Shown piece by piece: positions 3,085-19,678 of a DNA stretch of 28,814 bases; position 1 is the first letter of the stretch; the number at the start of each line of letters is the position of its first letter. The notes below the pieces were generated by a model. That model did not search any database. It had not been told where the DNA came from and saw nothing but the letters and a program-made list of their open reading frames with translations. The position numbers and the translations under genes are program-made. The stretch covers positions 1 to 28,814 of IMG/VR virus record IMGVR_UViG_3300047319_000981. The stretch is one strand, 5' to 3'. The DNA comes from a virus.

Positions 3085-4089
3085 ATGCCAATTAGCGTAG
3101 ACGCGTCTCGACCGGTGCGCACCGTCGACACCTCAGGCAACACCATCAGCACGAGCACCAACGGCGCGGCCCCCGTGCGGTCCGTCGACACGGTGGGTCG
3201 TGCGGTACAGGAAGACGCCGCCAAGGTGGCCGAGCAGGCTGCCGGCGGCAAGTTCCCGAACGGCGAGGCCCCCAAGGAAGGCGAAGCCGCGACGCCAGAT
3301 GCCGAAGAGAAGCCGCCGACTGGCGACGCCACGCGACGCGTCTGGCTCGAAGCGCAGAAGTCCAGGCGCCGCGCCCAGGAGATGGAGAAGAAGGCCTCGG
3401 AGAACCTGAAGCGCTCCGAGGCATTCGCGAAGGTCCGAGAACTCGCGGCGTCCGGTGAGGATCCGGTCGCCATCCTGCGAGAGGCGGGCCTCGACGAGGC
3501 GGACTACTACCAGAAGCTCACGCAGTTCGCGCTGTCGGACAAGGCGAAGAAGCCAGAGGACCCGGTCCAGAAGGAACTTCGAGAGCATAAGGAGCGCCTC
3601 GACAAGTACGCCAAGGACCTAGAGGTACAGACAAAGACGCTCGAGGACGAGAAGTCGCTTGCCCAACACAATCGCGCCATCTCCGAGCACGTCATCCCGC
3701 TCTTGCAGGCCAACCCGGACCGCTTCGAGGCGCTCTTTGCCGAATATGGGCAGAATGCCGCCGTCGAGGTCTACCGGACTGTTTGGGAGATCTACCAACG
3801 GACCGGCAAGGCGAGGAAGTTCGATGAAGTCGCCGACGAGATGGAAGCATATTGGAGCGAGACAATTGACAAAGGCATCCAGGCAGCTAGTAAACTAAAG
3901 AAGTTCCAGAACCGCTTTGCTCAAAGTGGGGACGGACCAGGACAACACCTCGACCGCATTGAAAATCGCCGGTCGGTGACTCTGAGCAACAAACCATCCG
4001 CGGCCCCGTCGCCACAGGTGCAGCCTGCGCCATCGCGCAAGCTGACTTGGGACGAGCGGACCGCGGAGATCCTCAAGCGGTTCGCCTAG
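3085..4089 (+). CDS. Capsid scaffolding protein
   Basis: This 334-aa protein is strongly charged and mostly helical. It has a disordered Pro/Glu/Thr N-terminus, a coiled-coil centre (roughly residues 80-215, rich in KxxExL patterns) and a basic C-terminal helix (LTWDERTAEILKRFA). Short basic C-terminal helices that bind coat protein are typical of podovirus scaffolds. It sits between portal and major capsid, the standard place for this gene. The ATG at 3085 is three bases after the portal stop. An overlapping ATG at 3081 opens only a four-codon frame. It is expected to be absent from, or lost from, the mature head. Confidence 0.8.
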   Translation: MPISVDASRPVRTVDTSGNTISTSTNGAAPVRSVDTVGRAVQEDAAKVAEQAAGGKFPNGEAPKEGEAATPDAEEKPPTGDATRRVWLEAQKSRRRAQEMEKKASENLKRSEAFAKVRELAASGEDPVAILREAGLDEADYYQKLTQFALSDKAKKPEDPVQKELREHKERLDKYAKDLEVQTKTLEDEKSLAQHNRAISEHVIPLLQANPDRFEALFAEYGQNAAVEVYRTVWEIYQRTGKARKFDEVADEMEAYWSETIDKGIQAASKLKKFQNRFAQSGDGPGQHLDRIENRRSVTLSNKPSAAPSPQVQPAPSRKLTWDERTAEILKRFA

Positions 4090-4139
4090 GCACTTAGGCC
4101 AGGTGCGGGCTGCGTGAGGAAGCTCACGGAGTTATCGCC

Positions 4140-5444
4140 ATGGCCTTCGGCAATGACGCGGTCGTCAATTCCATTGCGCTCACGCAGGGCGCAGCGGACG
4201 CAATCCTCAAAGAGATTTACTCCGACGACGGAGTAACCGATCAGTTTTTCCGGGAGAACCCGTTCTTCGGTTTGATGCCGAAGAAAGAGGACGTCACCGG
4301 TAGGTTCTTCGAGCAGCCCGTATGGGCGAGCGCCGGGCAGGCGCAGAGCCGCACGTTCGGGTCTTCGACCTCTGGTCCAGGCCTTCAGAGCATGTCGGGC
4401 ATCTCCGGCGAAGCGCCGTTCACGTTCCTCGTCCCCAAGGTCGAGAACATGGCGGTCGCGAACGTCAGCACGAAGCTGATTGCCGAGTCGTCCAGCACCA
4501 AGGGCGCGTTCGTCGACATGGTTCGGGCCATCGCCGACAACCAGATGCAGCAGCTCATCAACGACACGTCCATCGGCTTGTTCCGCGGCGCGGACATCAA
4601 CCGTGGGCAGGTCGGCGGGAGCGTCGCAGGTACCACGCTGACGTTCGCCAACCCATCGGACGCCGTCTTTTACGAGCTCGGGATGTTCCTTGAGTTCGCG
4701 GCGAACCCGACCGGTACAACCGTCCGCGCGCTCGCGTCGAACAACACTGACGCCCACATCACGGCCCTCGATTATGTCGGTGGCCAGGCAACGATTGCGT
4801 GGACCGGCTCCGGTACACAGACGCTCACCGCGAACAACGTCGCGCTTGGCGACTACATCTACCGCGCGGGCGACAAGTCGCTCGGCTTCAACGGCTTCCT
4901 CGACTGGATCCCGTATGGTGGCGTCGGCTCGGGCGACAGCTACCTTGGCGTCAACCGCTCGAAGCAGGCCGTGCGCCTCGCCGGCTCGTACCTCGACGGA
5001 ACGCAGGGAAACCTGGAAGAGGTCCTGGAGAAGGCCATCAACCGCGTGGCGCTGTTCGGCGGCAAGCTGACGCACTTCATCATGCCCTATGGGCAGTTCA
5101 CGGCTCTGGCGAATGCGCAGGGCGCGAAGGTGCAACTCGTCAACGTCAAGAGCGCAGAGGCTGACATCGGCTTCGAGGGCATCGAAATCACCGGCGCGAA
5201 CGGCAAGGTGGTCTGTCTTCCGGACCGCTACTGCCCGTCGAACACCATCGCCGGCGTGAACATCAACACCTGGAAGCTCATCTCCGTCGGCAAGGCGGTC
5301 CGCACCTGGCAGGAGGACGGCAAAGTCTGGCTCCGCTCCTACAACCAGAACGGGATGGAGATCCGGTTCTACTCGCTTGCGAACCTCGTGTGTCGCGAGC
5401 CGCGCGCAAACATCAACGTTCGCGTCAACCCGATCACCATCTAA
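4140..5444 (+). CDS. Major capsid protein
   Basis: This 434-aa protein is placed directly after the scaffold gene, and its composition is typical of a coat protein. An N-terminal arm (QGAADAILKEIYSDDGVTDQ) leads to a core with many small residues. Towards the C-terminus come the strand-rich segments FGGKLTHFIMPYGQFTALAN and VWLRSYNQNGMEIRF. The order N-arm, helix (VDMVRAIADNQMQQLIND), insertion of beta-rich sequence, then a P-domain-like end fits an HK97 fold. An ACGGAG sequence stands upstream of the ATG. A stable hairpin follows the gene, consistent with a separately maintained, abundant message. The exact capsid family was not identified. Confidence 0.85.
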   Translation: MAFGNDAVVNSIALTQGAADAILKEIYSDDGVTDQFFRENPFFGLMPKKEDVTGRFFEQPVWASAGQAQSRTFGSSTSGPGLQSMSGISGEAPFTFLVPKVENMAVANVSTKLIAESSSTKGAFVDMVRAIADNQMQQLINDTSIGLFRGADINRGQVGGSVAGTTLTFANPSDAVFYELGMFLEFAANPTGTTVRALASNNTDAHITALDYVGGQATIAWTGSGTQTLTANNVALGDYIYRAGDKSLGFNGFLDWIPYGGVGSGDSYLGVNRSKQAVRLAGSYLDGTQGNLEEVLEKAINRVALFGGKLTHFIMPYGQFTALANAQGAKVQLVNVKSAEADIGFEGIEITGANGKVVCLPDRYCPSNTIAGVNINTWKLISVGKAVRTWQEDGKVWLRSYNQNGMEIRFYSLANLVCREPRANINVRVNPITI

Positions 5445-5454
5445 CGGGCCGGGA

Positions 5455-5481
5455 GGCAGCCGCCATAACTGGCGAGCTGCC
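5455..5481 (+). promoter_or_regulatory. Hairpin after the capsid gene
   Basis: GGCAGC-CGCC (5455-5464) pairs with GGCG-a-GCTGCC (5471-5481) around the loop ATAACT, giving a 10-bp GC-rich stem with one bulged A. Flanking GGGA/TCCC can extend it. It lacks a T-tract, so it is more likely an RNA-stabilising or attenuating element than a full terminator. It separates the capsid gene from the next gene, whose own ribosome-binding site (GGGAGA, 5492-5497) follows. Confidence 0.55.
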
Positions 5482-5501
5482 CCCTCCCTCAGGGAGACAC
5501 C

Positions 5502-6140
5502 ATGGCGAATCGTTATCAGTGGCAGTTCAACGGCTCACTCAAACCTAAGATGAGCCAAATCGAGGGATTCGTGTCCATTGGGACCGGGGGCCTCCTCAAC
5601 GCAATCCCCGCATATCCCCTCTTCCCGGTCGCGACCGGGGCAACCGGTGGCGTGGCCGGCTCCGTCCAGACAGGCGTCCCGCTCGCCCTACTGCCTGGGC
5701 AGGCGACCGCCGGCGTTCCGACAGGGTGGCAGGGCGTCGGGTTCTCCGGCGCTATCGGGCTTCTCGGCGCCGGGCTAGATGGGATTCAGCGTGTGGCCAC
5801 TGGGCTATACGCGCTGAAGCTGTCCGACGACTGGGTGCGTCTCGACTCGGTGCAGGTCAATTACCTCATCGGGGCTTCCGGCGTGTACACCGGCACCGTC
5901 GGGACCATCGGCTTCTCGGGCAGCCCGATGCAGTCGGTGGACTGGAACCTCGTCCAGCACACGGTGGGACTGGGCAACACCGTGATGACCGGAGGCATGA
6001 CGCTTCCGTTCTATCCAGGCATGAATCCGAAGAACACTATTTGGATCCAGTTCACCAAGCAGGGTCCTTACGAGCTCGCCAACGGTGACGGGTTCTTCAT
6101 CGACCTGCGCCTGCGCGACACCCAGTCAGGGGTGCCGTAA
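5502..6140 (+). CDS. Probable virion protein after the capsid gene
   Basis: This 212-aa protein is rich in Gly, Thr and Val with predicted beta structure and no charged helices. Examples are GTGGLLNAIPAYPLFPVATG and WVRLDSVQVNYLIGASGVYTG. The start is well defined by a strong GGGAGA ribosome-binding site. Its location immediately after the major capsid protein suits a head decoration or fibre protein, but no family is recognised. The stop overlaps the next ATG (TAATG). Confidence 0.65.
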   Translation: MANRYQWQFNGSLKPKMSQIEGFVSIGTGGLLNAIPAYPLFPVATGATGGVAGSVQTGVPLALLPGQATAGVPTGWQGVGFSGAIGLLGAGLDGIQRVATGLYALKLSDDWVRLDSVQVNYLIGASGVYTGTVGTIGFSGSPMQSVDWNLVQHTVGLGNTVMTGGMTLPFYPGMNPKNTIWIQFTKQGPYELANGDGFFIDLRLRDTQSGVP

Positions 6141-6421
6141 TGCCAGCGCCTGCAGACATGGCGCTTCTCATCGGGAAGCGCCTGGACAAGAAGGGCGGCG
6201 GCGAGAAACCGACCGACGAGCCGTATCCCATGGAGGATACGGAGGACGGGGACGGGGACGCAGAGAAGGACGCGGTGGAGGACTCCGCCATCGCCGACTT
6301 CATGGCCGCCAAGGACCCGCAGACGGCGAAGGCCGCGCTGAAGGACTTCTTGGCTGCGTGCTACCCGCAGCTCGCGGACGACGAACCGGAGGAAGAGCCC
6401 GCGCCAGAACCGGAGGCGTAG
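6140..6421 (+). CDS. Small very acidic phage protein
   Basis: This 93-aa protein has a short basic start (IGKRLDKKGGGEK), an Asp/Glu-rich centre (DTEDGDGDAEKDAVED), one helix (AIADFMAAKDPQTAKAALKDFLAACY) and an acidic tail. Small acidic genes between capsid and connector genes are common in phages of this kind and often concern head assembly, but this role is inferred. It is translationally coupled to its upstream neighbour through TAATG. Confidence 0.65.
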   Translation: MPAPADMALLIGKRLDKKGGGEKPTDEPYPMEDTEDGDGDAEKDAVEDSAIADFMAAKDPQTAKAALKDFLAACYPQLADDEPEEEPAPEPEA

Positions 6422-6424
6422 CGG

Positions 6425-7144
6425 ATGACTACGACCCTCGGCAACATCATCGCGGAGGTGCGGCAGCGGGCGGACATCAAGGTCAGCCAGCACACGACCG
6501 ATGCTGACCTGACGACGATGATCAACCAGTCGTTGTGCCAGCTCGACATGATTCTCGTGTCGAAGTTCAGCGACTACAAGCTGTCGAGCGACATCCTCAG
6601 CGCCTCCGCCACGGATGGATCCATCGCGCTGTCGGGGCTTTCAAAAACGTTTTTGAAGCTCCGCGGCGTCGATGTCCGTTACAACGCCAGTGACCCGGAC
6701 GGGTACCTCGAGATCCACGAGTACTCGTTCCAGCACCGCAACCGGAAGCCGTACCTTGCTGGGGCCTCCTACGGCGGGTTCGGACCCAGCAGCGTGAGCT
6801 ACCGGCTCCAGGGCTCGAACATCATCATTGCCCCGGTCGCCCTGGCCACGCAGTGGACCTACCGCATTTGGTACACGCCGGACTACGTGCCGATGTCCGC
6901 CACCACGGACCCCATGCCGACCTACATGGATGTCCAGGGCTGGTTCGAATACGCGGTGGTCGACTGCTGCATCAAGGTCCTCGCGAAACAGGACCTCGAC
7001 CCATCGACGTTCATGGCGCAGAAGGCCGAGGTCAAAGACCTCATCATGCAGCTCGCGGCACCGAACCGGAACGCGGGCGAGCCCAAGTCCGTGGTCGACT
7101 CGCGCTTCTGGGACAGTGGCTGGGGTTATGGGCACGACTGGTAA
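6425..7144 (+). CDS. Head-tail connector (adaptor) protein
   Basis: This is a 239-aa protein. The N-terminal helix (LGNIIAEVRQRADIKVSQHTTDADLTTMINQSL) followed by mixed beta strands is the usual start of portal-binding adaptor proteins. A C-terminal helical region (GWFEYAVVDCCIKVLAKQDL, then FMAQKAEVKDLIMQL) is also a familiar feature of this class in podoviruses. It would form a ring below the portal and receive the tail. The position after capsid genes and before nozzle and fibre genes agrees. The gene begins 3 bases after the upstream TAG. The family assignment rests on pattern memory. Confidence 0.7.
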   Translation: MTTTLGNIIAEVRQRADIKVSQHTTDADLTTMINQSLCQLDMILVSKFSDYKLSSDILSASATDGSIALSGLSKTFLKLRGVDVRYNASDPDGYLEIHEYSFQHRNRKPYLAGASYGGFGPSSVSYRLQGSNIIIAPVALATQWTYRIWYTPDYVPMSATTDPMPTYMDVQGWFEYAVVDCCIKVLAKQDLDPSTFMAQKAEVKDLIMQLAAPNRNAGEPKSVVDSRFWDSGWGYGHDW

Positions 7145-9018: not shown

Positions 9019-12000
9019 ATGGCCTTTGTTCAAAAACAAATGGTCCCCGTGCAGTTCGGCGGCGGCATCGATACCAAGGTGGACCCCAAGCAACTGCAGG
9101 CGGGGCAGCTCCTGGAGCTCGAGAACGGCCAGTTCTCCAAGACCAGTCAAATCAACAAGCGCTTCGGATACGACCTCCTCGGAAAAAACATCGAGGGCGG
9201 CGGGTCTATCGCCAACGGTGTCGAGCTCGCGGTTCTGAAGGACGAACTCGTCCTGTTCGACGGCACCAGCGTTTACTCGTACCTCCCGGCAACTGGCAAC
9301 TGGAGCAACCGCGGCACGGCCATCTCCATCATCACCGAGGACAAGGAAGTAATCAGGCGACAGGACGCGCAGCAGCTCAATCCGGACATGGCCTACGTCA
9401 GGGGCATCGAAGTGTATGCCTGGGAAGACTCGCGCGGCGGCGTCTATTACAGCGTAGTCGACAATGTGAGCGGCGCGGTCGTGGTCGCGGGGGCCCAGCT
9501 CGCGGCATCGCCTGCGCAGCAGCCGAAATGCGTCGCCTTCAATGGCAACGTCTACATTTTCTATGCGTCGAACGCGAGCCTCTATTACCAGATTGTTGGG
9601 CCGAGTAACCCGTCCGTGGTTCAGGCCGCTGTGCCCGTGGCCACTGACGGTTACAGCGGGACGAATGGCTTCCCCTTCGACGTTTGCTCGTTCACCGCAA
9701 GCAATGGGTCGGCCCACATCGGGTGGCTCTATCTGTCGAACGCATCCACCGCGTCCATGGTCCTCGGCAGCCTGGACGTCAACAACACGACGTCCGCGCC
9801 ACTGACCATCAACGCCACGCTCGCGCAGGTGACGACCGGCGGCATCCACGGCGCGGCGAACCTGCTCGTGGACAGCCTCGGTACCGCGTGGGTCAATTGG
9901 TCGTCGGGCGCCGCGGTCTACACATGCCCCGTGGCGAACTTCGGCGCGGGCGGCGTGGCGCTCGGCACGCAAGCCACCGTGTTCGCGACGGGCAGATACG
10001 ACGTGCTGGCCTCGATTGAGGGGTACACCGCTGGGCAGCTGCTTCTCTTCTGCGAGAAGCACAACGCCACGAGCTACCTGGAGCAGACCGACTACGTCAC
10101 GGTCACGACCGCGGGCACCGTCAGCGCCACGCGCACGCTCTACAGCGTAGGCCTAGCCTCCAAGCCGTGGCGGTACGGTAGCAAAGTCTTCGTCAACACG
10201 TCCTACTCGTCGACGCTGCAGGCTACCGACTTCACCTGGTACGTGCCGTCGACGGGCAGCGCGACCATCGTGGCCAAGATGACCCCGAGCGTGGGCGGCG
10301 GACTGAACACGCTCGGCATGTGCGCCGAGACCGTGAACATCTCCACGGGGGTCTACAAGTTCGCGAACCTCGTGGCGGGGAAGATCTTGTCCGAGGCCAA
10401 TACCATCTTCACCATCCTCGGGGTCAACTCCACCAAGCTCACTCACTCGCCCACGGACAACTTCATCAATGCGGTCCAAGACAGCACGCTCCTTATTGTG
10501 GGAGGAATTCTGCAGGGGTATGACGGGGTCTCCGTCACGGAGGTCGGTTTCCACCTCTACCCGGAGAACATCGGGGTCGCTGCGTCGGGCTCGAATGGCA
10601 GCCTCTCGGCAGGCTCGTACCAGTATGTCGTCCAGTACGAGTGGACCGACAACCTGGGGCAAATCTACCGCTCCGCGCCCAGCGTACGCGCCACTGTCAG
10701 CGTGTCGGCCACCAACCACGTCACTGTCACCGGCTACTACCTGACCTTGACCAGCAAGCCCGCGGCCAGCGTCTCGATTGCCATCTACCGCACGCAGGCC
10801 AATGGGACGAACCTGTACCGCGTCACGTCGCTGCTGGCCCCGCTCGCCAACTCCGGCACCGCTGGGCAGTGGACGTTCACCGACCTCGCATCGGACGCGG
10901 CCATCGCGAGCAATGACCTGAACTACACGACCGGCGGAACACTCAGCAACATTGCTCCGCCCGCGAATGCGTTCCTCACGACCTACAACAACCGCGTGTT
11001 CCTGGGCGGGCTCTCCGACAAGAACCTTCTCTGGTACTCGCAGACGGTCGCGGACAACTCCAACGCCAACACCATCCCCCCGCAGTTCTGCGCCGAGCTG
11101 ACCGTGGGCTGCGACCCGCGGGGCGGCAACATCACCGCGCTCGGGCTCCTGAACCAGACGCTCATCATCTTCAAGAATTCGGAAATCTTCGCCATGTCCG
11201 GCAACGGTCCGGACGCCAACGGCAATAACAGCGACTACGGCGACCCCCAGCTCATCTCCAGTGACGCGGGCTGCATCAACCCGAACACCGTCGTAGTCAC
11301 CGCCGCCGGGCTATTCTTCCAGTCGCAGCGCGGCATATACCTCCTCGACCAGTCCCTCAACGCGACTTACATCGGCGCGCCCGTCGAGGACATCGTCAAC
11401 GGGATGACCCTCACGTCATCGGTGGAGAGCCCCAAGGACGGCCTAATCCTCTTCTGCTCCAGCGACGGCACCGCGGTGGTCTACGACTACTACCATCAGC
11501 AGTGGAGCACCTGGACGAACCATTACGCGTCCGACGTCGTCATGTACGAGGGGGACATCTGCTTCATCACGCCAGGTGGCCGGGTGTATCGGCAGAATCG
11601 CTCCAGCTTCACCGACGCGGGCTCACCCATCTTCATGTCATTCACGCTTCCGAACCTGAGCTTCGCGGGCCTGCAGGGCTACCAGCGCGTGTTCCGGTGC
11701 TTCATCCTGGGCACCTACAAGGGTCCACACTCGCTCGTGGTCGATGTGGCGTATGATTTCAGCGACTCATACACGCAGTCCGCCACCATCCAGCCGCAGG
11801 CCGGAACGCAGTGGGGCAGTGATCCGTCGTGGGGCTGGTCCTCGACATGGGGCGGCGGCTACCAGCTCTATGAGTACCGCGTGGATTTCAGCACGCAGAA
11901 GTGCACGTCCATTCGCCTGCGAGTCGCCGACGCGCAAAGCAGCAACTACAATGAGGGATACTCCATTTCGAGCATCGTGTTCGAGGTGGGCCAGCTGCCT

Positions 12001-12045
12001 GGCGGCAACCGTCTACCGGCTACCAGCACCTACGGAGCGCAGTAA
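9019..12045 (+). CDS. Large tail nozzle-like protein
   Basis: This 1008-aa protein is mostly beta. It opens with VPVQFGGGIDTKVDPKQLQAG and a FSKTSQINKRFGY segment. Long series of propeller-like strand repeats follow, and later RGIYLLDQSLNATYIGAPVE, then DYYHQQWSTWTNH and PGGRVYRQNRSSF. The pattern 'G.D.K.d...l..g....leN..f.' at the start and 'VYDyyhqqWstwtnh' near the end recurs in nozzle / tail-tube B-type proteins of podoviruses. These form the distal part of the short tail. Length is comparable to the larger members of that class. It lies after connector genes and before the ejection proteins, the canonical place. The gene is not visibly interrupted. Confidence 0.75.
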   Translation: MAFVQKQMVPVQFGGGIDTKVDPKQLQAGQLLELENGQFSKTSQINKRFGYDLLGKNIEGGGSIANGVELAVLKDELVLFDGTSVYSYLPATGNWSNRGTAISIITEDKEVIRRQDAQQLNPDMAYVRGIEVYAWEDSRGGVYYSVVDNVSGAVVVAGAQLAASPAQQPKCVAFNGNVYIFYASNASLYYQIVGPSNPSVVQAAVPVATDGYSGTNGFPFDVCSFTASNGSAHIGWLYLSNASTASMVLGSLDVNNTTSAPLTINATLAQVTTGGIHGAANLLVDSLGTAWVNWSSGAAVYTCPVANFGAGGVALGTQATVFATGRYDVLASIEGYTAGQLLLFCEKHNATSYLEQTDYVTVTTAGTVSATRTLYSVGLASKPWRYGSKVFVNTSYSSTLQATDFTWYVPSTGSATIVAKMTPSVGGGLNTLGMCAETVNISTGVYKFANLVAGKILSEANTIFTILGVNSTKLTHSPTDNFINAVQDSTLLIVGGILQGYDGVSVTEVGFHLYPENIGVAASGSNGSLSAGSYQYVVQYEWTDNLGQIYRSAPSVRATVSVSATNHVTVTGYYLTLTSKPAASVSIAIYRTQANGTNLYRVTSLLAPLANSGTAGQWTFTDLASDAAIASNDLNYTTGGTLSNIAPPANAFLTTYNNRVFLGGLSDKNLLWYSQTVADNSNANTIPPQFCAELTVGCDPRGGNITALGLLNQTLIIFKNSEIFAMSGNGPDANGNNSDYGDPQLISSDAGCINPNTVVVTAAGLFFQSQRGIYLLDQSLNATYIGAPVEDIVNGMTLTSSVESPKDGLILFCSSDGTAVVYDYYHQQWSTWTNHYASDVVMYEGDICFITPGGRVYRQNRSSFTDAGSPIFMSFTLPNLSFAGLQGYQRVFRCFILGTYKGPHSLVVDVAYDFSDSYTQSATIQPQAGTQWGSDPSWGWSSTWGGGYQLYEYRVDFSTQKCTSIRLRVADAQSSNYNEGYSISSIVFEVGQLPGGNRLPATSTYGAQ

Positions 12046-13148
12046 TGGGTTACGGCAATGGCGGCACAGATCCCCAGTACGATCTGATTAATCGCAACAG
12101 CGCGACCAACAACCCCAACTGGTACACCTCCAGCAACGCGGGTATCGGCGCCGACCTCGGCGGCCAGAGCCCGATGACCTACGGGCAGTACTGGGACACG
12201 ACCAGCAACGACCCCAACCAACAGGCCAACCAGTACGCCATCGAGGGCATGCGCGGGACGTACCTGGACGGCTATCAGAAGGGGGGCTCCTCGCTTGCCG
12301 GACTCACCACACTGGGCAACACCGCCAACGCGCAAGCCGCGAACATCGACACGGGGCAATCACAGAACCTCATGGGCGGCCAGGTCCAGAACATCAACGC
12401 ACTCAACCAGCAGGCGCAGGGCCTAGGCCCGTCCGTCGCTGCAGAGACCGCCAAGCAGCAAGGCGAGGCGAACACCAAGGCGCAAATGGCTGTCCTCGGC
12501 AGCCAGCGTGGCGCATCGAACAGCGCACTCGGGATGCGCTCCGCGCAGGACTCCGCCGCGCAGCAACAGCAAGGGGTCGCGCAGAACGCTGCGATGGGCC
12601 GCGCGGCAGAGGCTCAGTCCGCGCGCCAGCAGCTGACCGGCGCGCTTGGCGGCGCGACGCAGCAAGCACAGCAAGGCGCGCAGGCACAGGCGCAGCTCAC
12701 ACAGCAAGCCGGCATGCAGAACGCCCAGGCGCAGAACCAGGCGACGATGCAGCAGGGCCAGATGGACGTCCAGACCAAGCTCGCAAATCTGCAGGCGCAG
12801 CTCCAGGCCGGGCAACTCAACGAAAACGAATACAACGCCTACGTTCAGGCGACGCTCGCGCAGAACAACAACGATTGGGCCGCACGGACGAACGCCGCTA
12901 ATAACCTGATGAACGAAAATACGCAGCTGCTGGGCATCAAGGCAGGCGTAGGAATCAACGCGGCGAACAATAATATGGGGCTAATGGGCGCGGGCATTTC
13001 CGCCGGTGCAGCGGGCGGGGCCGCGCTTCTCGGCGCCGCATCCGATGAGCGGCTCAAGACCAGCATCAAGTCCGCCACCAGGGGCATCAAGGACTTTCTC
13101 TCGCAACTCGGCGCCGGCGCGACCTCCGGGTTCGCGCTCATGGAGTAA
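12045..13148 (+). CDS. Internal virion (ejection) protein with SD-x3-K module
   Basis: This 367-aa protein has a glycine/asparagine-rich start and a long Gln/Ala-rich helical centre, probably a coiled coil (about residues 125-270). A Gly/Ala membrane-like stretch follows (GLMGAGISAGAAGGAALLGA, about 308-330). The tail then contains SDERLKTSIKSATRGIKDFL (residues 333-352). The Ser-Asp-x-x-x-Lys opening is the hallmark of S74-type intramolecular chaperone domains, but here only the first helix-length segment is present. Low-complexity, Gln-rich, membrane-compatible proteins encoded after the nozzle are typical of ejected pilot proteins that cross the cell envelope with the DNA. TAATG coupling to the nozzle gene supports the start. 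Confidence 0.65.
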   Translation: MGYGNGGTDPQYDLINRNSATNNPNWYTSSNAGIGADLGGQSPMTYGQYWDTTSNDPNQQANQYAIEGMRGTYLDGYQKGGSSLAGLTTLGNTANAQAANIDTGQSQNLMGGQVQNINALNQQAQGLGPSVAAETAKQQGEANTKAQMAVLGSQRGASNSALGMRSAQDSAAQQQQGVAQNAAMGRAAEAQSARQQLTGALGGATQQAQQGAQAQAQLTQQAGMQNAQAQNQATMQQGQMDVQTKLANLQAQLQAGQLNENEYNAYVQATLAQNNNDWAARTNAANNLMNENTQLLGIKAGVGINAANNNMGLMGAGISAGAAGGAALLGAASDERLKTSIKSATRGIKDFLSQLGAGATSGFALME

Positions 13149-13151
13149 CAC

Positions 13152-14135
13152 ATGGCCCTTGGACTCAAAGACGCAATCTTCGGCGCCTTGCAGGCCGGCG
13201 CGGGTGTCGGGGCCATCGCGGCTACGGGCGGGGCTGCTGCGCCGCTGGTGCTCGCGGGCGGTGCGAAAACCATCTCCGATGACGTCAAGAAGGCGGACGC
13301 TCCGCCCCCCGTGACGGGCGCGCCACCTCCGCCGCCCCCGCCGATGCCGCCCCCGCAGATGACGTCCCCTGGGATCGCCGGTGGCGCTGCACCGGGAGCA
13401 GCCGGAATGATGTCGCCCGGGATTGCCGGGCCTGCCGCTGGCCCCGGGCCCATGCCCCCAATGGGGGGTCCGCTGCGGCCACCGATCGCCATGTCCGACG
13501 AACGGCGAAAAACGGCCGTCCAGTCGGGCACGGAGGACATCAAGCGTTTTCTTTCCCACTTCAGCGACAATGCACTCACGCCACCAGCTCCGGTTAGGTC
13601 CGACGCGCGCGCCAAGGACGAGGCCTACGCCATGGGCCAGCGCCATGGCGAGATGGCCGCAACGGCGCGCTGGGCGCGGTTCGCCCCGGATGTGCCGCAC
13701 AGCGCCATCGGCCCCAGCAAAATCACCAACAAGGCCGGCCTGGTGGTCCCAAGCAATGAACTTAGTGAGGCCAGGCATGGGCTAGCGTTTCAGGGTGGCG
13801 CACCGATGCATATCCAGGCCCCCCAGGGGGCCGGCGCGCCACTGCCTGCGCCAGCTGTCGCCACGTATCCAGGCCACGGCGCGGAGGCCCAGACCAGGGC
13901 ATCAGGCATGCCCGCCGACTGGGCCCCATGGCTTGATGCCGGCCCGCCCATGCAGGACCCCAACATCCCCGCGCAGGTGATGCCGCCGGTGCTGCCCGAC
14001 GACGAGCTGCGGCGACAGGCTGCCCTGCAGGGGCAGCCCGTCGCCTCCGACCGCCAACTCAAGGCCTACGTGAAGCCCGCCGACCGCTCCATCAAAGACT
14101 TCCTCACGCAGGTGTATGCCCATGCCCGTGTATAA
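13152..14135 (+). CDS. Pro/Gly-rich internal virion protein with two SD-x3-K modules
   Basis: This 327-aa protein starts with a hydrophobic Gly/Ala helix (IFGALQAGAGVGAIAATGGA) and runs into a proline-rich segment (residues 51-110). It carries two copies of the module: SDERRKTAVQSGTEDIKRFL at 115-134 and SDRQLKAYVKPADRSIKDFL at 299-318, the latter near the C-terminus. A related SDDVKK lies at 42-47. The middle (about 140-290) is proline/alanine-rich with few strong features. It follows the previous ejection-protein gene by three bases and overlaps the next. No enzyme motif is seen. A role in DNA ejection or in assembly of the internal core is inferred. Confidence 0.6.
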   Translation: MALGLKDAIFGALQAGAGVGAIAATGGAAAPLVLAGGAKTISDDVKKADAPPPVTGAPPPPPPPMPPPQMTSPGIAGGAAPGAAGMMSPGIAGPAAGPGPMPPMGGPLRPPIAMSDERRKTAVQSGTEDIKRFLSHFSDNALTPPAPVRSDARAKDEAYAMGQRHGEMAATARWARFAPDVPHSAIGPSKITNKAGLVVPSNELSEARHGLAFQGGAPMHIQAPQGAGAPLPAPAVATYPGHGAEAQTRASGMPADWAPWLDAGPPMQDPNIPAQVMPPVLPDDELRRQAALQGQPVASDRQLKAYVKPADRSIKDFLTQVYAHARV

Positions 14136-15390
14136 TTCTCTGCACTCCATGCAGCAGCTCACGCAACCGCGTCCGGCCCCAGTGCCTACGCGCGGGGCGA
14201 TGAACTTCGGGCGCGCCATGCCGGCCCCCATGCCCGCACGAGCGCCCGCGCCGATGCCGGCGGCCCATGCCCTGCCCCAGGTCGCGCCCCCGCCGCCCGG
14301 CGTGAACCAGCGCGTCGTCCCGGCCCCAACCACCGCGATGGGGGACACCCATATGGGCAGCCCCGCCGGTGCGAGCATCGGCGCCGCCCCGCCCCCAGCC
14401 GCGGGCGGCAACATGTCAGCCCCGAAGCCCGCGTTCAACCCGACCGCATCGCCACCGCCGGCACAGCAGCCGTTCAATCCCACTGCAACCCCTCCGCCAT
14501 CATTCAACCCCACGGCGTCACCGCCTCCGCCCCAGCAGCCGTTCGGCCCCGCCGCCTACCCCCCTCGCGGCCAGCACTTCGATATGGGCCCTCCGCCACA
14601 GCCCCCGCAGAACCTCGAACAGCAGGCGCTCAACGGCGGCGGCGTCGACAACAAGCAGCAGATTTCAAACTTCATGAACGCCCTCCACCAGGCCAACTCC
14701 GGCACGAACAACAGCTTCGCGCAGGGCGCCCAGCCGCAGGGCCCGGGGCAGCCCGGCAACATGGTGGATCTGGTGAGCCCGCAGTGGGCGCAGCAGCAGC
14801 CGCAGCAGCAGTTCTACGGGCGACCCGACACCCCGCAGGGCAACACCGACTGGTCCGCGTCCGGCTGGCAGCCCGCGTACACGGGGCCCGCTGCGAATAA
14901 CCCGTACAAGAACAACGCGGGCGGGTTCGTGGGCTTTGGTGGTCAGCCGGTTGGCGGGTCGGCTGGCGGGAACGTCGTCCAGGACGAGTCGCAGAAGATC
15001 GGCATGGCCAATCAGCTCGGGGTCAAGCCTGTCGTCCAGGACGAAGCGCAGAAGATGGCCCTCATGAGCGACGAGACGCAGAAGGAGCAGGTCACCGATG
15101 CGTCCGGCAAGCTGACCGACTTCATGAGCAAGATCGGCGCGCACTCGTACAAGTACAAGAACCCCGAGGTCGACGGTCAGGGCATCTACACCACGCCGAT
15201 GGCCCAGGAGCTCCAGAAGACAGAACTCGGCAAGCAGGCGGTCATCGAGACGCCGCGGGGCCTCATGGTCGACTACGCGCGGCTGGGCGGCGTAAACCTC
15301 GCCGCGGTGAGCGTCGTGCATCGCGAGCAGCAGAAGCTGGCCGCACAGGTTGAGCGGCTACGCGGTGAGCTGAAGAAGCGGAGGGGCTAG
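14116..15390 (+). CDS. Pro-rich virion protein ending in an S74-like chaperone domain
   Basis: This 424-aa protein starts at the ATG at 14116 (a second ATG at 14122 is equally possible) and overlaps the end of the previous gene. Residues 20-170 are Pro/Ala-rich and contain a repeat of FNPTAxPPP-type units. A Gln-rich and glycine-rich linker follows. The C-terminal third carries VVQDESQK and VVQDEAQK, then SDETQKEQVTDASGKLTDFM (318-337), and continues as HSYKYKNPE, MAQELQKTELGK, VDYARLGGVNLAAVSVVHRE. It ends in a coiled coil (LAAQVERLRGELKK). That whole order, SD...K, YxYK, AQEL, Y-x-R/L, then a terminal helix, matches an intramolecular chaperone of the Peptidase S74 type. In those proteins the Ser/Lys pair drives autocleavage after trimerisation. 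Cleavage here is not proven. Confidence 0.65.
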   Translation: MPMPVYNSLHSMQQLTQPRPAPVPTRGAMNFGRAMPAPMPARAPAPMPAAHALPQVAPPPPGVNQRVVPAPTTAMGDTHMGSPAGASIGAAPPPAAGGNMSAPKPAFNPTASPPPAQQPFNPTATPPPSFNPTASPPPPQQPFGPAAYPPRGQHFDMGPPPQPPQNLEQQALNGGGVDNKQQISNFMNALHQANSGTNNSFAQGAQPQGPGQPGNMVDLVSPQWAQQQPQQQFYGRPDTPQGNTDWSASGWQPAYTGPAANNPYKNNAGGFVGFGGQPVGGSAGGNVVQDESQKIGMANQLGVKPVVQDEAQKMALMSDETQKEQVTDASGKLTDFMSKIGAHSYKYKNPEVDGQGIYTTPMAQELQKTELGKQAVIETPRGLMVDYARLGGVNLAAVSVVHREQQKLAAQVERLRGELKKRRG

Positions 15391-17162
15391 TGGTGATTCC
15401 GACGTTCGCGGACCTGGCCGCCGCGCAGGTCAACAACCCAAATAATCCGTGGATGCCGCAAACCGCTGTGCCGGACGCGGTTGGGGACTACGCCGCCTCT
15501 CTTGGGAGGGAGCAGGCCGCCCAGACCCCTGGTGGCGTCATGACCATCCCGGAACAGGTTATCGGCGACAACTCGCACCACCCTAAGGCTGCGCCGGTAG
15601 GCCCATCGGCGGGTCTGTCGGCCTATGTCCGCAGCTTGCAGCACACGCCAAACACGCCGAAACCAGAAGGGGCTCCGGCTGGCGGAGTCCTGCAAATGCC
15701 GGAGTACGATCTCACCAACGTGGATGAGCCGGCGCAGGACAGGCCCGCAGAAAAGCATGTGGCGAAGACTGGAGGCGCTGGCGCGCCAGGCTACTCGGAA
15801 CGCCAGGCCCTGAAAGAGCGCGGCGATATTCGCGGCGAAGAGGCGGACACCCTCGAGGGCAGGGCAAAGACCGTAGACCGTGAGCAGGCGATCCTTCAGG
15901 CGGGCGTCAATGCGCGCGCCGATGCTCAGGCGAAGGCGGACGCCGAACTCAACACGATGAAGGTCCACGACAGCGTCCTAAACAGCATCGCAGAGGGCGA
16001 GGTTCAGACGAGGGATGCTGCGCACGCGAAGCATCTGGAAGAGGTCCGTGCGATGCACAAGGACCCAAAGAAGTGGTTCAAGGACCGCGGCACGCTCGGC
16101 AGCATCCTGGCGGCCCTGGCCAGCGGATTTGGCGCGTTCGGCGCGAACATGCCCCACAGCGGCGGTAAGAACATCGCTCAGGACATCCTCAACAAGTCTC
16201 AGGACAACGAACTGGAGGCGCAGCAGTCTGACATCGACAAGAAGTGGAAAGAGGTCGAGGGCGAGGTATCCGATAACGACAAGGCATTTGCTCGCGACAT
16301 GTTCCAGCGCCACGAACGACGCAACGCGCGGCTGGACTTCATCGACCACACCACGAAGCTCATCGACCGACAGGCGCTACTCACCCAGGACCAGGCGAGA
16401 ATCGCCGGCATGGCCGACCTCAAGGCTGACCTCATCGATAAGGCATCCGGTCTCAAAAAGGAAGAGGTCGGCGACCGCGTGGACGTCATGCGCCGAGAGA
16501 ACGCCGCTGCGGCGCAGGCCCGCGCACATGCGAAGGCAGACGAGAAGGAGCAGTGGTCGCGCACTCTCGAGATGGTGAAGCTAGGCCAGCATCAGCAGGA
16601 GATCGACCAGTCGGGCGAGAAGGTACGCAAGGAGGGCAAGGGCGACCTGGAATCCCGCGTCCAAGGCTACGGCAAAGCTCGACAGGACAAGGACATCATG
16701 AGCCGTGAGAGCGCCGTGGGTAGGCTCCGTGAGGCGGCTGCGGCATCCGGCGGCAATGGGATTCCAGGGGTCGGCAAGGTGGCCAATCTACGCCACGATG
16801 TCACCACGCAGAACCCGGTCATCAAGGCGGCGCTCGGCGTCAACGCTCTTGGTCCAATCAACTCGGCGCTCTCCCTGAAGCCGGACGAGCGCGTCAACCG
16901 CAACGACTGGAACCAAATCAAGCTCTCCTACGTCCATGAAATCACCGGCGCGGGCGGCCCACCGGAAGAGAAGAAAATGATCATGGACGCCTTCGAGGGT
17001 GACTTGACGCCGGCGGAGCAGTTGGCTGCGGTCGACAAATCGGACGCGTACCTGAAAAAGTACGAGGAGACGAACCAGGGCACCTACGGGCCAGATGCTG
17101 CGGCAGAGTTCAAGCGCCGCGCTAAGCCGGCCCCGCCCCCCGGATTCGTGCCGCGCAAATGA
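15390..17162 (+). CDS. Long coiled-coil internal virion protein
   Basis: This 590-aa protein begins at a GTG overlapping the upstream TAG (TAGTG), with a GGAGGGG ribosome-binding site. A second GTG follows at once. After a polar N-terminus it is almost entirely charged helix (about residues 130-420). It is broken by one small hydrophobic segment (LGSILAALASGFGAFGAN, about 234-251) that could insert in a membrane. Helical, charged internal proteins with one hydrophobic patch are typical ejection proteins of podoviruses. It ends with PPPGFVPRK and its stop overlaps the next ATG. No enzymatic motif was found. Confidence 0.6.
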   Translation: MVIPTFADLAAAQVNNPNNPWMPQTAVPDAVGDYAASLGREQAAQTPGGVMTIPEQVIGDNSHHPKAAPVGPSAGLSAYVRSLQHTPNTPKPEGAPAGGVLQMPEYDLTNVDEPAQDRPAEKHVAKTGGAGAPGYSERQALKERGDIRGEEADTLEGRAKTVDREQAILQAGVNARADAQAKADAELNTMKVHDSVLNSIAEGEVQTRDAAHAKHLEEVRAMHKDPKKWFKDRGTLGSILAALASGFGAFGANMPHSGGKNIAQDILNKSQDNELEAQQSDIDKKWKEVEGEVSDNDKAFARDMFQRHERRNARLDFIDHTTKLIDRQALLTQDQARIAGMADLKADLIDKASGLKKEEVGDRVDVMRRENAAAAQARAHAKADEKEQWSRTLEMVKLGQHQQEIDQSGEKVRKEGKGDLESRVQGYGKARQDKDIMSRESAVGRLREAAAASGGNGIPGVGKVANLRHDVTTQNPVIKAALGVNALGPINSALSLKPDERVNRNDWNQIKLSYVHEITGAGGPPEEKKMIMDAFEGDLTPAEQLAAVDKSDAYLKKYEETNQGTYGPDAAAEFKRRAKPAPPPGFVPRK

Positions 17163-19678
17163 CCCAACCCGTACCCATCACACTACTGGACGGCACCCGC
17201 GGCACCGTCCCCGCCGACCAGCTTGAGGCCGCCCTCTCGTCTGGTGCCACCGTGGACGACGGTGCGCCGACCGCTGCCGCGGAGCCAGTCGCCGCACCTC
17301 CCCCGCCCGCGACCGGACCGCAGAAGCTCATCGGCCCCGATGGGCTGCCGTACACCGTTCCGCTTGAAAGCGTGCCTACGGCGCTCCAGAACGGCTGGAA
17401 GCAGCCCGCCGCCATCGAGCAAGAGAAGACCGACTACCTGAAGCAGCGCGTGGAGGACCGCGTTGCCACCAAGGAGGGCGAGCGCGGCTGGGGCGCGTGG
17501 CACCGATTCGGCAACGAGGCACTGGGGGGCATCCCGGACCTGGTCGACACCTACGAAAACAACAAGTCCCTGGCGGGCCAGGAAGAGAACGCGGTTGAGG
17601 GCGCCGCGGAGGAACGGTTCAAAGGCGACCACAAGGCCGAGGTCTACACCGAAAGGGCTGCGGGCTTTGCCGCATCGCTGGCGCTCACCAAGGGCATCGG
17701 CACCGCTGGCAGACTCGCAGAGTCGGCGGTTCTTCGTGGTGCAGAAGAGACGCTGGCCCGCAAGATTGCCGCCAGCGCCGTCAAGGTTGCCGCGGAGGGA
17801 CTTCTCTACTCCACGCCCCAGGCCGCGGTGGAAGCGGCCTATGGCGACCACGAGCGCGCGGCAGAAACCGCGCTGTGGGGCATGGGTCTCGGTGGCGCGC
17901 TGGGTGCCGCCGGCGCGGTTGCTGGTGTCGGGGCAAAGGCGGCATCGCGGGCCGCTGGGGAAGCGCTGGCCGCTGGCGGTGAGGCGGTCGAGTCAGGCAG
18001 GGCAAAGCTGGCGGACGTCCTGGCGCACCGGCAAGCCGACGGCGTAACCATTTTAGACAACGTCTCCAGGAATGTCCTGGGTATCACCGACAAGCAGGCG
18101 CAGAGACTCGGCCCCGAGCGCCTTGCTCGCATCGTGGAGCATGCCAACGAGGAGGGGATTCTTTCCGCAAATCCACAGAAGCGCGCGGCAATGGTGGAGG
18201 CCATCCTCAAAGACTCCGGCGCTAAGATTGGCGACCACCTGGAGCAGCTCGACGGCTTGCTTGAAAAAGAGAAGTTCCACGGCATGGGCCCCATGGCGTC
18301 CGATGTGGCCGCTGACTTTCGAAATGCAACGTCCGGCAAGTTCCCGGAGCTCGGTACGGAAATCCATGCGCCGAACATGGCGTACATGGAGATGCTGGAC
18401 CGCACGATTCGTGGCGCTGGCGAGAAACCATCTTTCGAGGCGCTCCATGGCGTGCGCAAGGCTATCCGGGATGAGGGCAAGGCGTACATCTCGAAGAGCG
18501 TCAAGGCGGAGCTGGCCAAGCTCGCTGACGTTACCATCAAGAAGCACCTGGAGGACGCCGCACAGCGCATCTACGAGAACGGCGGCCTGAGGGAACAATT
18601 TGCCGACTACCTAGCGCAGAAAGAGCGCTACGAGATGGCCAGCCAGCTCGCGCAGAATATCAACCCATTCAAAGGAACCGGCCGCATCTCGCCAGGCATT
18701 GGCTCATTGGGTCTCGGGACCATGGGCAATATCGGCCTGGCGCTCGCCGGGCACCCCGTGGTCGCTGGGCTCAACATTGCCCGCGAGCACGCCATGAAGG
18801 CGTTTCTGTCTAACAAGTGGGGCCTGTTCGGCAAGTCAGTCTCCTTCCTTCGCGGCGTAGCCAAGGACCCAGCCACCGCGCCATTTATCGGTGGATTCAT
18901 GGCCAAGGAGGGCGCTGCCGCACTGACGTCGCACATCGACGCGCTGCCTAGCGTTCTGTCTGGCGCAACCAAGGTTGCAGGCCATACCGCCAGCGACGTC
19001 GTCTCGGACATCATTGGCGACACGACGGGGCTCAGTAAGGCGCAGCAGTACGACAGGCTGGTAGCTGTCATAACTCACGCCCAGGCGGATGCCGGCGCGA
19101 CTGCCAGCCGCGTTGGGCACGTAGCTGGCGCGTTCACCGGCACCAATGTGCAGCTGGCGGGCCTGGTGGCGGAGAAGAAGCTCAACGCCATCGCTTACCT
19201 GCAGTCACAGATTCCCAAAGACCCCACCACGCCGCGCGCATTCCAGCATGCGGAGTGGAAGGCCTCGCAGCAGCAGCAGCGAGAGTACCTGGCCAAGGCG
19301 ACGATCGTCGCTAACCCCATGACGGTGTGGAAGCACTATCAGGAGGGCAAGCTGACCAGGATTGACAAGGACACGCTTACGGCCGTCTACCCCGTCATCT
19401 ACCAGGAGATGGTCGCGAAAATCGTGGCCACCGCCTACAGCCCCAAGGCCCCGAAGCTCACCCGGGACCAGCGCATGCAGCTGTCCACCTTCACCGGCAT
19501 GCCGATGGACGGGAGTCTCAAAAACATCACCGAAATCCAGCAGGCCCTCCAGCAGCCGGCCGGGGGGCAGCAACCGCAGGGTGGGGGTGGCCCGCAGCCG
19601 TCCTCGCGCCCCCGGCTAAAGGCCCCGGGCCTGGGAACCGACACGCAACGACGCACAAGTGGAGGCGCCGTACAGTAG
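17159..19678 (+). CDS. Very large internal virion (ejection) protein
   Basis: This 839-aa protein is coupled by an ATGA overlap. Two similar N-terminal segments (residues 7-32 and 57-81; shared pattern LxxPDG/DG..xTVPxxxxxxALxxG) are spaced 50 residues apart. A helical body follows, with two Gly/Ala-rich hydrophobic stretches (about 240-275 and 512-540) that could be membrane segments. Its C-terminus is Gln/Pro-rich. The size, position at the end of the late block and amphipathic helices suit the largest internal/ejection protein of a podovirus. No lytic transglycosylase motif is evident, although these proteins often carry one. The gene is intact. Confidence 0.6.
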   Translation: MTQPVPITLLDGTRGTVPADQLEAALSSGATVDDGAPTAAAEPVAAPPPPATGPQKLIGPDGLPYTVPLESVPTALQNGWKQPAAIEQEKTDYLKQRVEDRVATKEGERGWGAWHRFGNEALGGIPDLVDTYENNKSLAGQEENAVEGAAEERFKGDHKAEVYTERAAGFAASLALTKGIGTAGRLAESAVLRGAEETLARKIAASAVKVAAEGLLYSTPQAAVEAAYGDHERAAETALWGMGLGGALGAAGAVAGVGAKAASRAAGEALAAGGEAVESGRAKLADVLAHRQADGVTILDNVSRNVLGITDKQAQRLGPERLARIVEHANEEGILSANPQKRAAMVEAILKDSGAKIGDHLEQLDGLLEKEKFHGMGPMASDVAADFRNATSGKFPELGTEIHAPNMAYMEMLDRTIRGAGEKPSFEALHGVRKAIRDEGKAYISKSVKAELAKLADVTIKKHLEDAAQRIYENGGLREQFADYLAQKERYEMASQLAQNINPFKGTGRISPGIGSLGLGTMGNIGLALAGHPVVAGLNIAREHAMKAFLSNKWGLFGKSVSFLRGVAKDPATAPFIGGFMAKEGAAALTSHIDALPSVLSGATKVAGHTASDVVSDIIGDTTGLSKAQQYDRLVAVITHAQADAGATASRVGHVAGAFTGTNVQLAGLVAEKKLNAIAYLQSQIPKDPTTPRAFQHAEWKASQQQQREYLAKATIVANPMTVWKHYQEGKLTRIDKDTLTAVYPVIYQEMVAKIVATAYSPKAPKLTRDQRMQLSTFTGMPMDGSLKNITEIQQALQQPAGGQQPQGGGGPQPSSRPRLKAPGLGTDTQRRTSGGAVQ

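Follow-up and report, generated by a model that had tools for sequence, protein, structure and literature searches.

S74/ICA intramolecular chaperones are known chiefly from trimeric fibres, as chaperones that remove themselves. S74 domains have also been seen before on ejection-type proteins: an S74-bearing structural protein adjoins the injection proteins upstream in phiGT1 (phiGT1_17), EBPR podovirus 2 (gp27), Rhizobium N2 (RHph_N2), Pseudomonas AH02 (gp11), and Ochrobactrum OH, and PHROG 4287, which shares this position, is annotated "DNA ejection protein". In these podovirus-type proteins the body is rich in Gln, the SD-x3-K motif usually follows a hydrophobic Gly/Ala stretch, and there is one complete S74 domain of ~60–120 residues. 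In MyRF, cleavage requires both Ser587 and Lys592 (PMC3742440) and depends on trimer formation. The C-terminal helix does most of the holding in this trimer, and between subunits alpha-1 packs around the alpha-4 coiled coil (PMC8326128). Separately encoded ICA-like chaperones have been reported to pair with tail fibres in Alteromonas phages, where an ICA-like fold (A5 gp9, V22 gp27) is proposed to act on another protein; the clients are tail fibres, and a client bearing a detached S74 head is not described in the portion of that account drawn on here (PMC10579305).

The window analysed here, a virus record taken at its full length of 28.8 kb, resembles the podovirus-type systems in the position of its S74-related sequence, which lies on proteins of the ejection-gene region rather than on the usual homotrimeric fibres. 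It differs in having truncated S74 heads on two proteins (gpA and gpB), with a third, separate protein (gpC; Table 1) carrying the complete domain. In the open-licence literature, we found no description of S74 heads that are detached and multiplied next to one whole domain.

Table 1. Genes and S74-related features of the window, in genome order.
Feature	Coordinates	Strand	Description
gp9019	9019..12045	+	1008-aa virion structural protein; position of tubular tail B / packaged-DNA stabilization protein
gpA	12045..13148	+	Gln/Ala-rich helical protein; C-terminal end is a truncated S74 head (copy 1)
Gly/Ala-rich hydrophobic stretch	12981..13040	+	GRAVY 1.45; adjoins copy 1 upstream, as in most gpA-type S74 proteins
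Copy 1, SDERLKTSIKSATRGIKDFL	13041..13100	+	in gpA; 35 residues from SD to gpA stop
gpB	13152..14135	+	short, Pro/Ala-rich; copy 2 internal, copy 3 C-terminal; not in five relatives
Copy 2, SDERRKTAVQSGTEDIKRFL	13494..13553	+	internal in gpB; no counterpart in relative L001
Copy 3, SDRQLKAYVKPADRSIKDFL	14046..14105	+	C-terminal in gpB; kept in L001
gpC	14116..15390	+	Pro/Gln-rich; complete C-terminal S74/ICA-like domain
QDESQK repeat unit	14980..14997	+	DExQK in common with copy 4; dyad Ser missing
QDEAQK repeat unit	15037..15054	+	DExQK in common with copy 4; Gln where Ser would be
Copy 4, SDETQKEQVTDASGKLTDFM	15067..15126	+	opens the complete gpC domain
Complete S74/ICA-like domain of gpC	15067..15387	+	modelled: alpha-1, strands, MAQE segment, 37-residue C-terminal helix
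gpD	15390..17162	+	590 aa; occupies injection-protein position
gpE	17159..19678	+	839 aa; occupies injection-protein position

An earlier note on this DNA, made from the letters alone, had pointed to four 20-residue SD-x3-K segments in three consecutive genes, and all four are present, in frame, where it placed them. Its fixed positions hold as well, with S1, D2, K6, and F19 identical in every copy and position 20 occupied by L or M. Ungapped BLOSUM62 scores were 58 for copy 1 against copy 2, 58 against copy 3 (12/20 residues identical), and 34 against copy 4, the remaining pairs scoring 32, 29, and 26. When copy 1 was used as the query against 40,760 six-frame 20-mers, the top three were copies 3, 2, and 4 (58, 58, and 34), with noise beginning at 24, and residue shuffles reached any copy-pair score at most 9 times in 20,000; a chance match is ruled out by this ranking and these shuffles. 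At the DNA level only 23–40 of 60 bases are common to the copies, so they are not recent duplicates. The four segments are thus a real, non-random feature, and their origin in the S74 domain is clear. Two further SD-x3-K strings occur in gpB, at 13275 and 13599, and neither matches the module profile.

On profile evidence, the segments are recognisable as two elements of the S74/ICA intramolecular chaperone (PF13884; K1F endosialidase chaperone 3GW6, MyRF ICA 7DC3), namely the cut-site strand with its Ser-Lys dyad and helix alpha-1, a likeness held by all four copies. In a PF13884 (Peptidase_S74) search, copy 1 matched at profile positions 1–23 and gpC at 1–51, from the SD onwards; copies 1 and 4 alone gave a signal, and copies 2 and 3 had no match to this profile. 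Against a cut-off of 22, gpC scored 23.5 bits in the genome search and 19.3 bits in an hmmscan of the protein. As a guard against circularity, an independent profile was built only from the S74 heads of other viral contigs. Run against 693 ORFs from the window and its relative L001, it ranked copies 1, 2, and 4 first (E 1.7e-5, 0.0026, and 0.077), followed by copies 4 and 1 of L001 (0.2 and 0.21) and then the next ORF at 9.2. Copy 3 and its L001 counterpart were not recovered by this profile among the same ORFs, and copy 3 is therefore joined to the S74 heads through copy 1. With the PF13884 and outside-only matches, the S74-type SD...K dyad proposed in the earlier note is borne out.

The same holds for its proposal that only the third protein carries the full domain. 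The C-terminal model of gpC has a mean pLDDT of 88.5 (~97 across most of the domain), with a helix at model residues 42–51 spanning the second half of copy 4, then strands, the MAQE segment, and a predicted long C-terminal coiled-coil-type helix at 99–135. Using Foldseek, the nearest solved structure was MyRF ICA 7dc3 (E 1.8e-4), followed by the endosialidase chaperone 3gw6, and a profile search of structures returned 8jov, 6f45, 7dc3, and 3gud; the gpC domain fold is S74/ICA. In copy 4 itself, S1 and K6 align with the dyad of 33 outside S74 domains plus that of L001. Copies 1–3, in contrast to the S74/ICA family, stop after the head. They have the dyad and alpha-1 (from the profiles, and from a helix at 343–354 in the low-confidence gpA model), and lack the strands, the GVIAQ-type segment, and the C-terminal helix. 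Counted from the SD, gpA ends at 35 residues and gpB at 29, and the sequence after copy 2 is not S74-like. Copies 1–3 are truncated, and the rest of the S74 domain follows only copy 4. The description of these copies as detached first helices agrees with the modelled elements, an extended SD-x3-K stretch and then helix alpha-1.

Upstream of copy 4 lie the two QDExQK units that had been taken as degenerate further copies. Both exist; however, they have only DExQK in common with copy 4 and lack the dyad Ser, and given that L001 gpC has three DExQK units around QKIGM to the two in the window, they seem to form a small repeat of their own, distinct from the S74 heads.

In the gene order around the segments, gpA comes after the tail-B-like protein and before the injection proteins, the location of the S74-bearing structural/ejection protein in related podovirus-type genomes, and it is from gene order only that we infer a virion or ejected status for gpA, gpB, and gpC. 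A Gly/Ala hydrophobic stretch before the SD, as in gpA, was present in most of 30 gpA-type S74 proteins (median GRAVY 0.72 vs 0.08 in 58 others), a sorting by tail length that is rough and takes in a few contig-end fragments. Window gpA had no match in a PHROG search, whereas its counterparts in L142 and L106 did match the ejection-type family, and the structural model of window gpA is poor (pLDDT 56.6) and taken only as a hint. The gpB and gpC genes overlap by 20 bases (14116–14135), so that the tail end of copy 3 and the start of gpC lie on common DNA, and the overlap is seen in L001 too.

Using gp9019 as the anchor gene for synteny, we identified five further genomes with gp9019 and the order gp9019-gpA-gpD-gpE, from which gpB and gpC are missing. 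The body of window gpA had no significant match to the gpA of these five distant relatives, its scores falling within composition controls, and its placement in the family therefore rests on gene order. The C-terminal ends of these five proteins vary widely: two carry a whole S74 domain, one carries nothing, and two carry other motifs. In the gp9019 tree, L002 pairs with L144 and L142 with L146 (support 1.0), and within both pairs the ends disagree. The C-terminus of L144 gpA (3752–4903) is a whole S74 domain (21.7 bits, just below the cut-off) and L002 gpA (5029–6594), which is homologous to it (~260 bits), ends in two GEAGPE motifs matching tape-measure PHROGs. In the other pair, a whole S74 domain (32.6 bits) closes L142 gpA, and L146 gpA (3779–4384) stops where the S74 SD would begin. 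The fifth, the protein at the gpA position of L009 (13481–14563, on a MAG contig), has the PGE motif NDTVPALLSPGEIVLPR near its C-terminus. The L002 gpA body also matched L030, on the contig of L142, at 56 bits, compared to shuffled controls of at most 20. Given that relatives carry a whole S74 domain, nothing, or a GEAGPE or PGE motif there, the gpA C-terminal end appears from these comparisons as an exchangeable module. In the open-licence literature, neither a search on a GEAGPE tape-measure motif nor one on S74 in ejection proteins turned up a description of the arrangement reported here.

Such swapping between sister phages (L002 vs L144) for short tape-measure-type motifs is what would be expected of exchangeable address tags, and the head helix could accordingly be a packaging or targeting tag, recognised by a scaffold, portal, or tail hub, that brings gpA, gpB, and gpC into the virion without depending on the S74 fold of gpC. 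Its occurrence in three consecutive genes, C-terminally in two of them, fits this reading. However, L142 and L144 carry a whole S74 domain in this place, which exceeds the needs of a tag, and the invariant Ser-Lys pair is left unexplained, so we regard it as doubtful.

Closer to the window stands L001, which is 85% identical in gp9019 and carries gpA, gpB, and gpC too. Its gpA and gpB end in truncated heads and its gpC has the complete domain; as the L001 heads end short likewise, truncation by sequencing error is ruled out. The idea of a shared module, tested in relatives, stands for the three copies kept in L001 and not for copy 2, which is absent from L001 gpB and specific to the window among these two genomes; in the distant relatives, with unrelated modules or none at the gpA end, it does not carry over, and is limited to one lineage. 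The window and L001 are that one lineage, and the association of truncated heads with gpC counts in effect as one event.

The dispensability of the gpA C-terminus is clear in the relatives, with L146 ending at the start of the SD and L002 and L009 carrying other motifs, and copy 2 is found in one of the two genomes. Both points suit a reading of the truncated heads as relics, leftovers of whole S74 domains that have lost their function, in slow decay as a harmless C-terminal tail. Against decay, S1, D2, K6, and F19 are unchanged in 7/7 copies of the window and L001, and positions 9, 16, and 20 are hydrophobic in all seven, though both regularities are partly inherent in the module definition. 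The gpB proteins are ~32% identical overall and 18/29 over the last 29 residues, making the C-terminal head the best-conserved part of the protein between the two genomes. The pN/pS ratios were 0.39 for the gpA head and 0.54 for the gpB head (0.15 for the remainder of the gpC domain), and a multiplication to four copies would be odd for a relic. We consider loss of function not very likely.

Wider searches for comparable heads recovered little. With tblastn (gpA, gpC, and their C-termini against 50,697 phage records), nothing convincing was found for the heads, for which short queries are too weak, and a DNA pattern for SD-x3-K-x9-IKDFL in IMG/VR returned L001 as the only relative. A search of viral contigs for SDERLKT, one fixed motif with chosen codons, gave at least 120 matches; among the matches listed, nearly all run on for at least 60 residues, the continuations being whole S74 domains, or fused or longer ORFs, and a few others reach contig ends, with L061 and L097 not S74-like. 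One candidate for a natural truncated head, L077 (stop at 26 residues), was taken as broken, since its near-copy L104 continues. In a metagenomic phage record (L138, 8449–12006), we also noted an "internal virion protein D" of 1185 aa in which an S74 head lies internally, at residue 277.

Two contigs, L106 (212–5230, minus strand) and L109 (10324–14601, plus strand), carry a long ORF in which two whole S74 domains separate gpA-like, gpB-like, lysozyme-like, and coiled-coil units; this is possibly a self-cleaving virion polyprotein. In L106 the single 1673-aa ORF fuses gpA-like, gpB-like, and later units and holds two whole S74 domains, where cutting would separate units. This, the retention of the dyad in every copy, and the need for both Ser and Lys in MyRF (PMC3742440) are consistent with the heads being active cut sites, where the dyad would cut before Ser and free short tails, in cis or with the help of the gpC domain. 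However, the known ICA reaction geometry arises from the whole fold, and cleavage needs a trimer, for which the C-terminal helix is the main building element (PMC8326128); since gpA and gpB lack this trimerising helix, autocleavage of the truncated copies in cis is unlikely, and the reading as a whole is very improbable.

The sequences themselves establish what the heads are, that they are truncated, that this truncation is kept in two genomes, and that the gpA end is exchangeable. The explanation we prefer, and consider fairly probable taken whole, is that the heads derive from an S74/ICA chaperone, that the gpA domain was cut back, and, less probably when taken by itself, that the heads dock on a gpC hub. 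An ancestral gpA, between the tail-B-like and injection genes, would have ended in a whole S74 domain, as in L142 and L144; in the lineage of the window and L001, this domain would have been reduced to its head, and two genes added, gpB with heads only and gpC with the head inside a complete S74-like domain. It is plausible that the cut site and first helix, all that gpA and gpB keep, serve as a tag for docking or assembly. The truncated heads would then dock on the gpC S74 trimer via the retained hydrophobic face of alpha-1 (positions 9, 16, 19, and 20), and gpC would serve both gpA and gpB as a common chaperone or assembly hub during virion building. Docking during assembly is put forward tentatively, by analogy: bare heads may dock on a gpC trimer because alpha-1 packs against the trimer in MyRF and ICA-like chaperones can be encoded separately. 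The relic and address-tag readings come close behind it. A split S74 system, in which a trimeric gpC hub binds, and perhaps cuts, the detached heads of gpA and gpB, is unlikely; if true, a chaperone of the intramolecular kind would have become a signal for assembly or maturation that several ejection proteins share.

In this group of phages, sister genomes differ in having lost, exchanged, or shortened the S74 domain on ejection-region proteins, and in one lineage it has multiplied as bare heads. The swap for tape-measure motifs offers a lead on those motifs, whose role we did not find described in the literature. If the heads work, they would form a modular, exchangeable signal for gathering ejection proteins into the virion.
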